Assembly (NCBI GenBank): GCA_033297075.1
Contig: MU858083.1
Coordinates: forward strand, 62,001-126,000
Direction: 5' to 3'
Length of the DNA: 64,000 bases
From: Rhypophila decipiens
Taxonomy: Eukaryota; Ascomycota; Sordariomycetes; Sordariales; Naviculisporaceae
The position numbers and the translations under genes are program-made. The notes below the pieces were generated by a model, which worked only from the letters and a program-made list of their open reading frames with translations, did not search any database and had not been told where the DNA came from. Positions 46,118 to 57,462 of this stretch are shown one piece after another (the stretch's first letter is position 1; each line of letters starts with the position of its first letter).

Positions 46118-47468
46118 TCAAACGACACTCACATCATTATCCACCCGAATACGGTTGGGGGTCCCGCCGATCTGACTGCTCTTGCTCTTCAAGCTGACTG
46201 CCTTGACATCTGCCATGTGATACTCTTGATGGGGTGAGACCTTGATGAACTCCTCCCGGCTCTCAACGGAGCGGATACTACCGATCCGGTTGCCACAACC
46301 CCCGTCAACCTGCGCCCCGCTCCGGCCTGTCCCGCGGAGAGATGTTAGAGATGTGTACATGGCGCTCATCACAGGTGACACATAGGCGCTCATGAGATGC
46401 CTGCCGAGATGGAGACTAGCCGGGAGACAGGTGCAGAGCAGAAGGATCACAGGTTCGGCGGTAACCCAGTACACGACGGGAATTCCCCCCACCCGTACCC
46501 GGTCAGCATCGAGAGCTCCGGGCAAGCACGGGAGCCAGACTCGCATGTAATATCGTTATCCAGGGCTTCAGAACTCTTCAGAACAGTAACCAGCCGGCCC
46601 AATGAGACAACAATCACTCTTAATTTCCCCATTTTCTTGTCAGCTGATCAACCCACAACGCCAGGGACCAGCTGCAAACACTTACCCGTACCCGAGAATA
46701 AAGATCATGATGATGCCAATCTTTTTCGCGGCGCTCACCTTGATATGCCACAGCAAAGGCAGCGGCAGGAGCAGAATGACCAAGTCGATAAACACGCTCG
46801 GCACCGCGCTCCCGATGAACATGCCGCTGTTAGGCAGGCATTCGCCCTCCACGGCCGCGTCCCAGTTCTTCTCGACGGGGTTGCAATGGAATATGGTGCC
46901 ACAGATGCAGCCGATCCACCAGGCGACGTTCATGCCGTGCGTGATCGATACCCCGTTATTGAACCATTTTCCAACCGCGATGGCCGGGAAGACACGACGC
47001 AGGAAGAGCAAGGCCGAGGCCCGACAGAGCAGGAGCGCAGTGTTGTAGAGGAAGTAGATGGCAAAGGTGCTCTTGGCTATTACCATCAGGTCCTCTGGGT
47101 CGCCAAACGTCGCGAGCACGCCCATGTGCCGGCCGAAGCCCTTGGCCACGCCGAGAATGGAGAGGGCAAGCTGGGCGAGGATGAAGGGCTAGAGGAAGAA
47201 TAAAGGTCAGATGTTATGTCCTCTAGATGAGGCTGTAAGCTGAACCCACAACGGCTAGCAGGGAAAACCAGTCATCGAGACCGAAGCGGTGCTTGAACCT
47301 CTCTCTCGGCATGGACATGCTGCGGGACCAGAAGCGGAGCGCGACCGGGAGCACCGTGACGATCACCATGACGATGCAAAACGCCCGGAGGCCGGGGCTT
47401 CGGTCAGCCGCCACATATTCGGGCGGGAATTGGGGAGGCCCGGCCTGCGGTGACTGGTTTGCCGACAT
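46118..47468 (-). CDS. Fungal rhodopsin-like (PTH11-type) integral membrane protein, C-terminal frame problem
   Basis: Exons 47250..47468 and 46686..47188 join in frame over a 61-nt intron, then a 67-nt intron leads to an exon starting at 46618. Several membrane segments: AFCIVMVIVTVLPVALRFW, DDWFSLLAVPFILAQLALSI, STFAIYFLYNTALLLC, MNVAWWIGCICGTIFHCNPV and SVFIDLVILLLPLPLLWHI. The DDWF and CNP motifs and seven-helix pattern are those of the rhodopsin-like fungal membrane proteins. The exon from 46618 reads VIVVSLGRLVTVLKSSEAL then DNDIT, but the following helix PVVYWVTAEPVILLLCTC and the C-terminal tail lie in another frame, and I find no GT-AG intron between about 46550 and 46475 that connects them; a G6 run at about 46,487 is a candidate site for an indel. 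The function of this family is unknown outside a role in surface sensing for the founding member. Confidence 0.65.
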
Positions 47469-48501: not shown

Positions 48502-49304
48502 GAGGGTAGATGGAGGAGACGGTGCTTTAACGCACTATCGGCGTTCCTGTTAAGGAGTGTAACTGGAAGTTTAACAAGCTAATGCTGGTCCAATCGTGCT
48601 CAATTCGGTCTCGGTGATAAGAACTGCTCAGTGAAACATGGAGTTTATCTCATAAAGTATTTCCACATGGCTCTGAGCGGGACTCGTGGACTATGGTACT
48701 ATGCCTGACTGTGGATTTTTCAATTAGGGATTGCCGTGTAGGCCAGAAAAAACAAAACACAAAAGATTTGAGAATTAATACGTACACTAACTATATATTT
48801 TTCATACATAATTATAATATGCAATCCATAATAGTACTTGGCTAGCAACTAGCCTGATGTAACCCGCTTTTCCAGTATAAAAAAGAGCCCCTACCAGGCA
48901 CAAACCCACCCCCCAAGCCACCACTATAGATAAGTAACCAAACTACAGCATCTCACCATATTTTTCTTAGTGTTGAGGCAGTTTACAGCCCTTAATTGAA
49001 CTATCACAGCAATTGAACTGGCTTGACCGGCTTGACTGAATTGGACTGGCTTAACTGGCTTAACTGAATTGGACTAGCTTAACTGGCTTGACTGGCTTGA
49101 CTGGCTTGAAATGGTTGATAACCATAAAGGGGTAGTATTTTGTATGCGAAATACAGGTCTGTAATTGCCGACTGCCATATGTGCCAAGATAGTGTATGTA
49201 TGAAAAGTCTATGGTGTACGTATTAATTCTCAAAGATTTACTTAAGAAAAAGAATATATTTCCACATATTATCTGGACAGCAGTAATAGTTGTTTTGATT
49301 AGTA
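48502..49304. other. AT-rich intergenic region with short tandem repeats
   Basis: About 800 bp, mostly AT-rich, no gene. Contains a 10-bp repeat array at 49,013-49,110. Right end is the 3' flank of the NLR gene. Confidence 0.5.
49013..49110. repeat. Short tandem array, unit near ACTGGCTTGA
   Basis: About nine copies of a 10-bp unit (ACTGGCTTGA/ACTGGCTTAA), with ACTGAATTGG interspersed at regular spacing, giving a higher-order period near 31 bp. Confidence 0.75.
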
Positions 49305-51345
49305 TTACTCCCATAGTAAGTCTATAATCCAACTTGAAGCTCCATCAATATACCCGCACCTGCGGCGAAAGTCCTCTGTTCTAGCACTCAGCACTTGGTG
49401 TCGAATGTGCTCCCAATCTTCTCCCTCCCAGATTTTGTTTCCACGCCTAATTATAAACAACAATATATTCTCCTCGGCCTTTTGTCCCACACTGCTGTAG
49501 TCACCGTTGAACCACTTCGTTATCATAGGGCTGGCAGTTTCGAAGTCCTTCGAGTCTATCGCCAAGAAAAGTTGGATCTGCGCCTGCGAATCCTCATCGA
49601 GGAGCGATTTGTCTGCCCCGCCAGCGATAAGAAGTTTGAGGATCGAGAGCCGTTCGTCCGCGGGTACAATGTCGAATTTCTTCTTAAATGTAGTCATTCC
49701 CTCCAAAGCACCCAGCAGACAAGCCGAGGCGGGTTTGACAAGTCTTGTATCTATCAGACACCTGACTATTTCGGTTTTACCCTTCTTACAGGCATAAACC
49801 AGTGATTTGTGCCGGTTTTCAGGGGTCATATTCGTGACCAGAATCTTGACCATACTCGGCGCATGGGGTACCGGAGGGAAATGACGAAAAGCCAGGGATT
49901 TGATATCAATCATGTGCTCCGTGACTTGGGTGAGGAACTTTGGGCTCGTTATTGCGCCGCGACGTATCATAGCCCCAACTAGTGGAGGGATGTCGTAGTG
50001 TAGAGCGATATCCAACGGAGTCAGCTTTCGTGAATGTCTCCGGGACAAGAGCTGCCCGAAATTGTAGGACAATATACGATTTTCCTCGTATATGAATTTC
50101 AAACTTACGTGTGATCCTCCACCTTCGAGTTGGCCGTTTGCAGGCGCGAGCACAATGTCCATCTCGTCCAGTGTCAGCGGCTTGTTGGCCGTTTGCAGGC
50201 ACGAGCGCAATGTCCATCTCGTCCAGTGTCAACGGCTTGTTGGCTACCAATATAATGTGAAACAAGGTCCTGGCTTCCTCTTGTTCCTGTGGGAGGACCC
50301 GATCTAACAGCTTCACATATGCTGCATCAAGATTGCGTGGAAAGCGGTTGATAAACTGGACCAGACGTTCCTCTTGCGATATTCTTGTTCTACCCAAGTC
50401 GTTTAGAACAAGGCTAACCCACAGGTATGTCAGGTTGTCTTTGTCCCGCAGTGCATCGATGACATGTCGCTGGACGGCATCGGAGGGAGGGTATCGATAA
50501 CCCTTGAAGAGCCTTCGGACTTGCTGCTCAATGGCAAGGTTGATTTCAGACTTGAGCGTTCTATATGAGTCATCCTCTGGTCGTAGATTGATCTGGTCGA
50601 CGTTTTCCATGCTGGAACGGAATGTATTCTCAATTTCTGGATATGGTCGACTCGTGAGGAAGAACTTGGCCTTACTCGGCCGTCCGATTTCACCGGTAAC
50701 GAAAGACGCAATTCGTTCAATGAGGTCGTTTCTGCTTATCTCGTCACATTCGTCCAGCGCATCCAAGACAAAGCAGACACTACCAGTTCTCGGATCGGCG
50801 ACGACCTTCTCGAGCAGGCTCCATAGTGCGGGAAGAGAGCCACTCAATGCATCCTTCTTCTTTTTGTGAATTTCGGTAGCATGATCCATGGCCCAGTCTC
50901 TGGCCAAGAGCAGTTGATAGAGAAGTGCACAAAGTGCTGCTTCAGCGGTGTCTTGAGTCGAGTCGTCAGCTTTGAAGAAGAAATAGCAGATGGCAGGAGG
51001 TGGCTCGACTGTCGAGTCCGAACAAATGAGAGTCTCATCGACTAGAGCGCGCGACAATACAGACTTGCCCGCGCCAAGCTCTGCGCTGACCCAGAGGGCT
51101 GCCGCTGATGGGTGATCGCGCCATCGGACGAACTTTTCGTGGGACACGACCCATTGGCAAGTCCCTGGGGTTCGCTTTGGGTTTCGGTCCTTTCCTCTTT
51201 CGTAGTTGGAAGAGAGAAGACTCATCAGAGCTTGGGCGTCGCTGGGGTGCTGATACTGGTTGAAGACGTGACCCTGGTGAACTCTAGCGGATCCCGATAT
51301 GTTGTTTCCTTCCCAAGTGTTCGTGGTACGACCTGAGTCATCCAT
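49305..51345 (-). pseudogene. NACHT-type NLR with N-terminal amyloid motif; frame broken by a 55-bp duplication
   Basis: The likely start is the ATG at 51345 (MDDSGRTT); an upstream in-frame start near 51600 exists. Residues 9-28 are an amyloid signalling motif (NTWEGNNISGSARVHQGHVF) of the HET-s-related type. The NACHT domain follows: Walker A ELGAGKSVLSRALVDE, Walker B VCFVLDALDECDE, then FFLTSRPYPEIEN, the arginine/sensor region and a winged-helix-like part (LTYLWVSLVLNDLG). After the segment KPLTLDEMDI the frame is lost inside an imperfect 55-bp tandem duplication (50130-50239), and translation continues out of frame to a stop at 49906, giving about 479 residues. The original C-terminal part (LTPLDIALHYDIPPLVGAMI, ankyrin-like; ends DLLWE at 49305) lies in the other frame. 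It is divergent to the HeLo effector gene. Confidence 0.85.
50130..50239. repeat. Imperfect 55-bp tandem duplication inside the NLR gene
   Basis: Copy A 50130-50184 and copy B 50185-50239 match at 52 of 55 positions; all three differences are transitions. The extra 55 bp is not a multiple of three, so the reading frame shifts from one copy to the next. Each copy, read on the minus strand in its own frame, encodes KPLTLDEMDI followed by PANGQ. Confidence 0.95.
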
Positions 51346-52334
51346 TTTGTCTATCACGTCGGAATGGGGGCCGTAAATTAAACCACCAGGCTCCAGTGGT
51401 GCGGTTCCAACAAAAATTGGCAACAAATATGGCGAATTCAGGCAAACAGTCGGGTTGAGTGTTTGCAACTTTGGAGATTTGGATGGGCATTGCGCGGATA
51501 CTTTCAAATCAAGGAAGTTATCTGTGGTTGATGGCCCTCTTCGGAGGACAAACGCCTTAGTCCCGACATAGGACCAGACAAATGCCTCTACAGTATTCAT
51601 CGCCTCAGCTTTATGTTGCCTTTTTGATAATTACTCTTGGCATTCCGTCCCGTCCCACCGCAACTGCCAATTATGAGCATGGAAGATATATGCCGGGCAA
51701 CGAAAGATTACATCCCATCCACATGAAATAGCTTGGCGCTATCAGCATCATGGGCTCTGATATGAAGAACAATCATTTTGAGGCTGACTTCGCAGGAACC
51801 GTGCATGCATTCGAGCCCAATCAATATACCGCATGCACTCGCGAAGATGAAATCTGCGCCAACTAAATTAGGCAATTTCAGTACATACTATAATTACCAC
51901 GTTGATAGTATCAGGATTCAAGTACCTCTATTTGGGAGTCAAAATGCTTCTTCTCATTGGCCCATCACCGCCGAGACCCTCCTTTCTGGGTCTAGGCCAG
52001 ATTTCATCTTCGCGAGTGCATGCGGTATCCTGTCAACATCAATCGGGGGCTCCGGAGATGGCAGATGCGCGTTGATGGCAGAATAAAAAAGAGTAGGTCA
52101 CCACGACAAGTGCCGGAAGCCATCAATTAAATTACAGCGAGACCATGAACGTTTCTCAACATTCTGTTTCACCTCTTTAGCTGCTTCGTGCTCTGCTAGC
52201 TCCATAACCATTGGTAGCAGTTCAAGATACGGATTTAGACGCTCCAGTGTGTGAGTCCCCATCATTTCCCACCTACCTAACCAGTTCCTCGTCCACTGTA
52301 TACTAACACAAAGGGGCATCGAACCCGAACGAAG
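51346..52334. other. Divergent intergenic region between NLR and HeLo effector genes
   Basis: About 990 bp that should carry both promoters. No open frame with domain signal; no repeat seen. The distance and head-to-head orientation are typical of fungal NLR/effector pairs. Confidence 0.6.
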
Positions 52335-53270
52335 ATGGAAGTTGCCGGCCTAGTCATCGGCACCATAAGCCTTGCCACCCTCTTCGAAAGCGTCATAACC
52401 AGTCTCGAGCGTATCCATATCGGCAAAAACTTTGGCGAGAACTACGAGAGCTACGCCCTCCAACTCGAGGTCCTCAAGCTACGCCTCAATAGGTGGCGTG
52501 ACGCGGTCAATAAACTTATAGAAGAAGGCGGCCAAGGATCAACTGCCGTCAAACAGGCGAACGGGGAGCTTGCAAAGCGTCATCTAAAGCTGATCGACGA
52601 CCTTCTCCAGAAGGAACAAAGACTCTCCAAACGATACATTAAACCACGGCTATCAAGGGATATTGATACAGCAGACGACGGTGCCTCCCTCCACGATCAA
52701 CATTGGCTTCTCAGAACAATTCGTTTGATCTCACAAAGACACCAACGCAGCAAAGCCAACACGACATCTACGACAGCCATGAGCAGCAGCACGCCCAGCA
52801 GCGGTCGAAAGGGTAAAGATCCTATCAGTAAGCAAGTCTCTTGGGCAATGTCGGGAGAGGATCGCTTCAAGGATCTCACCACCAGGATTTCGACACATAT
52901 GACGGACCTTGAGCAGATCGTCCCGACAGACGAGATGCAGGGCCAACTCGTCAGATTGAAGGAGGAGGATGCTATGGAGGTTTGCACCCAAGCAGAAGCC
53001 GACTCGAAGGGTGTCGAAATCCTCACCTTGACATCACAGGCAGCAGATCCAAGGTTTGCAGAGTTGCTCAAGGAAAAGACGAAGAATACGTGGATCAACA
53101 ACTCCTTCACAGGCTCAGCGAAGGTCAATCAAGGGGATATTATAGCGCCCGATTACCGCGGGCCTGTCATCCCAGCCGAAAACAAATGGGAAAAGAACAC
53201 GGCTGGCGGTAATGCCCAGCTTACACAAGGGACTGTGTATGGGCACAACCCCCCCTTTGCCAACTGGTAA
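52335..53270 (+). CDS. HeLo-domain cell-death effector with two C-terminal amyloid motifs
   Basis: Single exon, 311 residues. The N-terminus is a HeLo domain: hydrophobic first helix VAGLVIGTISLATLFESVIT, then IHIGKNFGENYESYALQLEV and LRLNRWRDAVNKL, the helical bundle known from HET-S and its relatives, with a charged middle and a Ser/Thr-rich linker (about residues 130-165). The last 60 residues hold two imperfect repeats: R1 residues 251-270 (NTWINNSFTGSAKVNQGDII) and R2 residues 283-302 (NKWEKNTAGGNAQLTQGTVY), 32 residues apart. Both match the N-terminal motif of the NLR encoded divergently 1 kb away. In HET-S, folding of the repeat pair into a beta-solenoid amyloid remodels the HeLo domain and exposes the N-terminal helix, which damages membranes; the same role is inferred here. 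No lesion in frame; the gene looks functional. Confidence 0.88.
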   Translation: MEVAGLVIGTISLATLFESVITSLERIHIGKNFGENYESYALQLEVLKLRLNRWRDAVNKLIEEGGQGSTAVKQANGELAKRHLKLIDDLLQKEQRLSKRYIKPRLSRDIDTADDGASLHDQHWLLRTIRLISQRHQRSKANTTSTTAMSSSTPSSGRKGKDPISKQVSWAMSGEDRFKDLTTRISTHMTDLEQIVPTDEMQGQLVRLKEEDAMEVCTQAEADSKGVEILTLTSQAADPRFAELLKEKTKNTWINNSFTGSAKVNQGDIIAPDYRGPVIPAENKWEKNTAGGNAQLTQGTVYGHNPPFANW

Positions 53271-55086: not shown

Positions 55087-57462
55087 TCAAAAGCCAGCAG
55101 AACTAGCGCCAGGGCCAGCGACAAACATGCCCTCCTTAGCACCCCACTCCATAACCCGACTCATCACATCCCCCCTCCGCAATGCCTCGTAAATCTCACC
55201 CGCCATACTTCCCAAGGTCCTCTTCCTATTCACCTTGCTTCCTTCACCATTGACATGCCCATTTCCATTCGCCGCCTTTGCAGCTTCCCTCTCAGCCTCA
55301 ACAACAAGCGGTGGATGATCTACAACACCTCTGTTCATCGGGATACCCAATTCCGTTCTCACAAGATCATAAATCACCCTAGTCGCGGGGGCGAGATACT
55401 CACGTGTAATATTTACTGGGTTTTCAACAAATGTGGCCCGGAAAGACAAGTACTCCTCTGCCAAGACGGTCGACATCTCGTCCGTGTAGCGTTGCAGGGA
55501 AGCAAATGACTCATTCCCATCTCCAGATGATGCCGATACGAGAGTGATAATTGTTCCGAGAGATTCACCCACAGCCGTCCTGGCGCGATCTTTTGTGTCG
55601 AGGTGGGAGAGATGGTCCCATCTTGTTAGGATGGCGGACGTGGCCGCTTTGACAAGAGGCGAGAATGAGCTAGACAATGTCCCATTGAAGCCCCCGCTCA
55701 TTCCATGATTTTCGTAGAAAGCCAGCTCCCTCAGGGACTTGAAAGTCCGGCCCAAGACCTGATGTACTAGCAATGGAAAGCGCTTGCGCCATTCAATCTG
55801 CAGGACTCGGAGATCAACCCCCTGGCAGAGAGTGTACATGTACACGGCGGCCATGAGCGACAAGACCTCAACAGCCTCGAGGGCATACCGCGCGCTGACC
55901 AGGGCCATGGAGTTGACAGCCTGGTTGGTCATTTCAGCCATTTGGACATGGGTGCTGACTGGATGGGCGAGGTATGCCAGCTCAGCCATGTATGCCGCCA
56001 TATTGACGTCGAACCCCTTGCAAATAAACGATTCACTCGGGTCGTCCGCGCTGAGATTGGGCGGAAGTCCCTTATTGGTCATGTTGTTGATCAGCTCAGA
56101 GCTCTGGGTAAAGAGCAGCCGGCCAAGATTCTGCACGGCAGTCATCGTCTTCTCCATGGCCGACGTAATGGCCATGGCCTGAAAGTTCCCGCCATGGTGG
56201 ACACGAGAGTCCTCGGCGTCGATTAGTGGGTTATCAGTCGTGGAATTAAGCTCAACCGCTACTTGGCGCGTCGCAAGGAGGAGATCCTCCAACTGCGGGC
56301 CGATCCATTGCGGGGCGGTCCGGAGCGGGTAGCGGTCCTGGGCGAGGCCAATACGGTCTGGGTCCCGATCAGACGAGATCTTGGAGCCGGACAGGAAAGC
56401 CAAGATGTTGGCCGCCGCCTCGGTCTGCCCTGCATGTGGCCGAATGGCAGAAATAAAAGGGTGGTAGTTGTGTGCGGTTCCTGCAAGCGCCTCGGTGCCC
56501 ATGGCGGTGAGCAACTGCGTGAGGAGGGCGAGCTGGTTGGCTTGATGTATGACGATGCATGCCGTGGCACAACTCGGTGCTGTGCCGTTGGTGATCCCGA
56601 GACCTTCCTTGGCCTGCAGACGAACCGGATCGATGCCGGCCAGTTGGAGGGCCTGGTCGGCAGGTACGATCATGTCCTTTTCCGAAACACCACTGCCGCC
56701 TGCCACTCTGACAAAGACATCCGGGTTTCCTTCGATCGCGCCGGCAATGAAGGACAAGGTGGAGAGATCGCCCGAGGCCGAGATACTGCCCCGCAAAGGT
56801 ATGACGGGGGTCATGTTGTTGGAAATGAGCGCCATGATAGAGTCGATGGTACTGAGACGCACTCCCGAGTGGCCACGCAGCAGCGAGTTGCACCGGACCA
56901 GCATAGCTGCCCGCGAGATTGGATTGGGGAGGGCATGGCTTCGGAGGAGCTCGTTGTCGCTTGCTGATGTTTTGCCTTTGTCGCTTTGCAAGACGATGCC
57001 GGCATTCAGATGTTGCACAGCAGCACTCTGAAGACGTTCGACCAGCTTGGTTCGAGTATCTGCACTGCCGCCGAACCCAGTGTTGACGCCGTAGATGACG
57101 GCACCATTCTCGATCTGATTTGCCAAAAAGTCGACACTATCTTGGACTCTTTTCAAGACTTTTGGGTCCTTGGCCACTTGAGCACCAACGCCGGTTCTGA
57201 TAGAGCGCAGTGTTAGTCAGTTGTGTTTCAAGGGTGTCTCTTGGTCATGCTTGGGCTCGGTGGTGAAAGGGACCCTGTTGTCTTGGAAAGCGGAGAGGGG
57301 TAGAATTTACCGTGAAACGGCGACAACGTCGCCAATTGACAGATCACTGCCGGTAAGAGAGACATTCTTTCGGCCCTCGAGAACGTCGGACCAAGTTGCC
57401 CACTGTGAATAAGTCTCGGATGCGTGCTTGTAAACGGGTGCTGGCTCCATCATTGACCCCAT
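55087..57462 (-). CDS. Phenylalanine ammonia-lyase (aromatic amino acid lyase family)
   Basis: Predicted CDS is complement(55087..57196, 57311..57462), 753 residues, one 114-nt intron; start MGSMMEPAPVYKH. The first exon ends VVAVSR, followed by TGVGAQVAKDPKVL. The active-site loop and MIO-forming Ala-Ser-Gly lie in GSISASGDLSTLSF; also YGVNTGFGGSADTRT, the loop Asn of EGLGITNGTAP, and DNPLIDAEDSRVHHGGNFQ. The enzyme converts L-Phe to trans-cinnamate and ammonia (some fungal members also accept Tyr). The length and C-terminal multi-helical shielding region fit the eukaryotic PAL size (about 700-750), longer than bacterial histidine ammonia-lyase. The last 70 residues include a NGNGHVNGEGS low-complexity stretch. 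Regulated in many fungi by phenylalanine and nitrogen source; nothing in the promoter shows this here. Confidence 0.93.

Follow-up and report, generated by a model that had tools for sequence, protein, structure and literature searches.

We report that a 64,000-nucleotide stretch of DNA from the dung fungus Rhypophila decipiens (contig MU858083.1, positions 62,001 to 126,000; hereafter the window) carries, at 49305-53270, a gene for a HeLo-domain effector and a divergently oriented gene for a NOD-like receptor (NLR). This locus is very likely an amyloid-signalling pair of the HET-S/NWD2 type, i.e., an HRAM pair, in which the effector looks intact and the receptor is probably disabled or reduced. 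An earlier reading of the sequence alone had proposed an amyloid-signalling immune or allorecognition unit. Profile matches, homology, apparent linkage in relatives and structure prediction support an HRAM-type pair, whereas an immune or allorecognition role is a proposal and a working unit is doubtful, the NLR being interrupted.

The effector (P0001) occupies one frame at 52335-53270, and the HeLo domain originally assigned to it is confirmed by a Pfam profile search (PF14479, E 3.5e-26; 92.7 bits, with the cut-off at 23.2). Its top sequence match in the PDB is the HeLo domain of HET-s (2wvn, E 2.3e-12). A first protein search with the effector listed three proteins: the effector itself and two Rhypophila proteins (P0002 and P0003). 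A wider set of relatives was also assembled, in which 108 of the 110 listed were aligned and two proteins longer than 500 aa (P0230, P0231) were excluded. Residue 32 of the effector is Asn, and aligns with the position that switches between HET-s and HET-S (Pro in 2wvn, His in 2wvo); across the alignment this position is Asn in 18/108 rows and Pro in 0/108. As described in PMC5485727, a substitution at position 33 removes pore-forming activity. The most hydrophobic 19-mer of the protein comprises residues 3-21, and Asn32 together with this hydrophobic N-terminus is compatible with a toxic form, without proving one. Judged by its sequence, the effector looks intact: the reading frame is open from end to end, and the HeLo domain, the hydrophobic N-terminus and both C-terminal repeats are kept.

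The two tail motifs and the single NLR motif proposed earlier were also recovered, with refined limits; that is, effector residues 251-302 resolve into the repeats r1 (251-271) and r2 (283-303), and the NLR motif r0 spans residues 9-29 instead of 9-28. All three can be aligned without gaps, with 10 (r0-r1), 9 (r0-r2) and 7 (r1-r2) identities of 21. Ungapped 21-mers were scored with BLOSUM62 against 10,000 shuffles of the tail. The top score of r0 against the tail, 65, was reached by 0/10,000 shuffles (maximum 49), and the r1-r2 score of 43 by 2/10,000 (maximum 44). When the NLR (P0004, 479 aa) was compared with the whole effector, all eight top 21-mer pairs landed on the r0, r1 and r2 motifs. 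HRAM proteins are described as having two repeats of ~21 aa with Gly19, mostly hydrophobic residues at positions 5, 8, 10, 16 and 18, and a loop of 6-18 aa (PMC4518210). The effector tail shows repeats of ~21 aa, Gly19 and an 11-aa loop; positions 5, 10 and 16 are hydrophobic, 8 (Asn) and 18 (Gln) are polar, and position 15 is Lys in r1 and Gln in r2. The adjacent NLR of an HRAM pair, with a single N-terminal motif resembling those of the effector, has its counterpart in r0. Asp, Glu and Lys together number one in r0, two in r1 and three in r2, and Ser and His four, two and none, in line with the charge-poor r0 motifs of PMC4518210.

Profiles of the relatives gave a concordant result. A two-repeat tail profile was built from 104 relatives with P0001-P0003 held out, its columns being taken from an alignment that contained these three, which is a small leak. 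It matched the effector with 29.9 bits and the NLR with 14.7, so that the HRAM signal expected by the sequence-only reading is present in both; P0003, P0002 and P0055 scored 11.5, 8.1 and 8.0, and the NLRs of the Rhypophila relatives (P0005, P0006) were not matched. Shuffled controls peaked at 4.8 for tails and 3.5 for NLR N-termini. Among the other 116 NLRs the top score was 7.4; the whole set comprised 120 that were listed and aligned, the window NLR among them, out of 930 passing the E-value. A single-repeat profile (199 rows, 105 relatives) was weaker, with 12.9 bits for P0004, 8.1 for P0055, 7.8 for P0001 and 3.5 for P0002, best controls of 4.8 and 2.6, and no match to P0003, P0005 or P0006. 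A strict motif pattern, applied to the first 70 residues of the same 120 NLRs, was found in three: the window NLR, P0006 and P0055. A softer matrix, to which P0004 and P0006 had contributed, placed 11/120 above the highest score of the shuffles, several of these matches lying in the P-loop region instead of a motif.

Modelled with an alignment, the effector tail adopts a predicted solenoid-like fold with a root-mean-square deviation of 2.1 over 53 residues of 6eka, and in this respect resembles the FNT1/HELLF system of Podospora anserina (HELLF being placed in HRAM5 by PMC7885112 and PMC7889193). That system differs in that the domain of HELLF is HeLo-like and the NLR is of the NB-ARC/TPR type (PMC7885112). 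When the PDB was searched by sequence, neither the tail by itself nor a 7-row alignment of the motifs matched HET-s or HELLF. An alternative stable non-solenoid fold of the tail was not found, the single-sequence fold being uninformative on this point.

The NLR was correctly placed on the minus strand with its start at 51345, in agreement with the start of the relative P0006, and it carries an NPHP3_N domain (PF24883, E 5.1e-35 in a Pfam profile search); the NACHT match itself (PF05729, E 2.2e-4) lies below the Pfam cut-off. The head-to-head layout, given earlier as about 1 kb, is likewise correct, the two ATGs being 989 bp apart. What had been missed is that the NLR frame is broken: 49305-51345 comprises two overlapping minus-strand open reading frames (ORFs), 49906-51345 and 49305-50228, not a single one. 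Because 55 is no multiple of three, a 55-bp tandem duplication shifts the frame, and P0004 is therefore out of frame with its relatives beyond ~residue 387; the three differences between the copies speak against an assembly slip. Beyond 50109 the window resumes at ~residue 499 of P0006 and ~485 of P0005, skipping ~160 residues of both. The winged-helix matches of these two relatives are weak and under the Pfam cut-off. Repeat-induced point mutation was considered as a source of the damage; in their dinucleotide ratios the NLR parts stay close to the window average. No better NLR copy and no missing segment was found elsewhere in the genome, where the other places covering the segment belong to NLRs with 36% identity at most. 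In this assembly the receptor end has probably been disabled, or cut down to an r0-plus-NACHT stub. With an interrupted NLR frame, and lacking ~160 residues that both Rhypophila relatives have, the pair is perhaps no working unit here.

Table 1. Coordinates of the effector and NLR genes, their amyloid motifs and the NLR lesions in the window.
Feature	Position	Strand	Remarks
HeLo-domain effector gene (P0001)	52335..53270	+	311 aa, single open frame
Amyloid repeat r1	53085..53147	+	effector residues 251-271; predicted strands 251-254, 257-258, 263-266, 269-270
Amyloid repeat r2	53181..53243	+	effector residues 283-303; predicted strands 283-286, 289-290, 295-298, 301-302
NLR open frame (P0004)	49906..51345	-	ATG 51345; r0 and NPHP3_N/NACHT; 479 aa; frame differs from that of relatives past the duplication
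Amyloid motif r0	51259..51321	-	NLR residues 9-29; from shuffle test and profile of relatives
55-bp tandem duplication	50129..50238	.	two copies, 3 differences; shifts NLR frame
Junction with ~160 relative residues missing, including part of weak winged-helix match	50108..50109	-	
NLR 3' part, other frame	49305..50128	-	weak ankyrin matches; homologous to P0005/P0006 C-terminus

Several observations weigh against an HRAM pair with a disabled receptor. Folded alone, the tail has a predicted local distance difference test score of 48.7, zero DSSP elements and no confident fold, an uninformative outcome, so that the solenoid foreseen by the sequence-only reading is obtained with the alignment and not from the tail by itself. 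A match to 2kj3 does not test the window tail itself, and PF11558, the canonical HET-s prion domain, finds no match in the window pair at E up to 10 with HMMER filters on. The last of these, and the shortness of the motifs, would suit a likeness due to chance or to a non-amyloid binding motif; chance was ruled out by the shuffle and held-out profile tests, and with the solenoid prediction also opposed to it, this explanation is very improbable. The broken frame is in turn challenged by a 130-nt candidate intron that could rejoin it. Both NLR parts are open in separate frames (51345-49906 and 50228-49305), and of 547 GT/GC-AG pairs that rejoin them one (50108-49979, GTAAGT...TAG) passes strict donor, branch-point and acceptor patterns. 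A receptor that works after all, by such splicing or as a retained shorter form, is nonetheless unlikely: the intron would excise sequence conserved in P0005 and P0006, the last residues of its 5' exon would be out of frame, and the ~160 absent residues take in some of the region that gives both relatives their weak winged-helix match. That the pair as a whole is in decay, with the effector a bystander relic, is also doubtful. The NLR is broken and annotated P0002 stops after r1, lacking r2 (P0003 carries both repeats), but the window effector has a fully open ORF and retains its HeLo domain, hydrophobic N-terminus and both repeats.

Divergence among the relatives bears on whether this is a fast-diverging het-type allorecognition locus, with long-kept alleles instead of ordinary orthologues in different assemblies. 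The effector is 52% identical to P0002, which is labelled R. decipiens, and 47% to P0003; for the NLR, identity to P0005 is 69% across 62% of P0004, and 43-49% in the 3' part. In comparison, the genome's other HeLo protein (P0125) shares 94% identity with P0126, which likewise bears the R. decipiens label, and 84% with P0127 from PSN 637. By these figures (52% versus 94%) the window pair is unusually divergent. Strains of the decipiens group compared in PMC12734299 have an average nucleotide identity of ~95% (94.99-95.21%, except one same-species pair at 99.74%), and a closer copy of the pair was not found in its own genome. On the other hand, paralogues with differential loss would give the same picture, P0002 and P0003 are 76% identical, and the comparison has a single control gene and assumes that P0002 and P0126 are in one assembly, presumably of a relabelled strain of the CBS 256.69 type; CBS 256.69, held as R. 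decipiens, is treated as R. myriaspora in PMC12734299. We thus entertain the allele explanation without favoring it. The effector and NLR are probably linked in both Rhypophila relatives, since the longest contigs given for P0002 and P0003 (106,837 and 50,493) have the same lengths as those given for the two Rhypophila NLRs that head the NLR list; P0006 carries r0, and annotated P0005 does not.

Within the HRAM class, the pair has a distinctive composition. Gln18 occurs in 5/108 aligned rows at r1 and 4/108 at r2, its carriers being the Rhypophila proteins, P0194 and P0204, and Trp5 in Rhypophila proteins only (three rows at r1, two at r2). Asn8 is common to about half of the aligned relatives; position 3 is Asn in the window motif, and His3 is most frequent in the relatives. 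The window pair differs from NWD2/HET-S of P. anserina (HRAM1) by Trp5, Asn8, Gln18 and the lack of a PF11558 match, and also by the broken frame of the NLR and by weak ankyrin matches in its 3' part, a region that carries WD repeats in NWD2. The survey in PMC4518210 distinguishes five HRAM subfamilies and counts 155 HeLo-related proteins with two repeats, together with 98 NLRs next to them. Its text and legends give Gln18, present here in r1, r2 and r0, as a likeness to HRAM4, under which its Table 1 lists P. anserina, and describe His3 for HRAM3. Placement in HRAM4 is at most tentative, as Gln18 fits it while Asn3, Asn8 and the His3 of the relatives do not place cleanly.

A second pair is found on contig C26, where a HeLo protein with two repeats (P0124; PF14479 E 5.4e-46, no PF11558 match) equals, save one leading residue, the database entry P0125, heterokaryon incompatibility protein s of Rhypophila decipiens. 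As in the window, the two-repeat HeLo gene faces a gene of the NACHT type (NPHP3_N E 4.8e-19) in head-to-head orientation. This NACHT gene is preceded by an ATG-starting open stretch in which the second half of the repeat recurs, a candidate motif. The pairs differ in their motifs: C26 has Tyr18, His or Ser at 3 and Phe or Tyr at 5, and the window Gln18, Asn3 and Trp5. By His3 in r1 we place the C26 pair as HRAM3-like. In a motif scan of 26 loci (L001-L026), only the window pair and C26 r2 scored above 28, C26 r1 and r0 falling below. A search of the genome with the window NLR N-terminus, at E up to 10 and with one candidate scored, found only itself, and is insensitive because the C26 NLR also escaped it. 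Each pair is flanked by short tandem repeats of a similar kind, with units of the ACTGGCTTG and TGACTGGAT types, at 49011-49109 and L005:5411-5836.

In working pairs of the HET-S/NWD2 type, as given in PMC4518210 and PMC7885112, activation of the NLR would let its N-terminal r0 nucleate a cross-beta solenoid fold. This fold would template r1 and r2 of the effector, whose HeLo domain would then release its hydrophobic N-terminal helix, move to the membrane and kill the cell. By analogy, we infer amyloid formation, seeding and killing for the window locus. More speculatively, and with little confidence, two Rhypophila HeLo/NLR amyloid channels may be separated by core-lining residues (Trp5/Gln18 versus Phe or Tyr5/Tyr18 on C26), the Trp5/Gln18 locus being hyperdivergent and allorecognition-like; here the receptor would be lost and a competent effector triggered otherwise, e.g., by the r0 of a fusion partner. 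The window pair adds a natural HRAM variant with altered core positions, in a genome whose second HeLo/NLR pair makes it suited to testing what keeps amyloid signalling channels apart. Should the receptor truly be lost, the pair is also a natural instance of a HeLo effector without its NLR.

Rhypophila is unnamed in the main texts of the fungal NLR surveys PMC9815663 and PMC12258605, and the main text of the Rhypophila genome paper (PMC12734299) does not mention HET-s, incompatibility, NLR, HeLo or amyloid. Among the literature matches listed, supplements lying outside the search, none contains the name Rhypophila.

Between the divergent genes, at 51826-52028, lies an element of ~203 bp whose inverted ends are perfect over 31 bp. 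Contigs C10 and C109 carry copies related to it (69% over ~190-200 bp), and C2 has short matches resembling its ends, which suggests a miniature transposon. Further out, an open stretch at 47845-48501 matches a GMC oxidoreductase in its C-terminal domain alone (E 1.3e-20) and is possibly a gene remnant. The minus strand carries an aromatic amino acid lyase at 55087-57216 (E 9.8e-148) and a fungal rhodopsin-domain stretch at 46682-47188 (E 1.8e-32).
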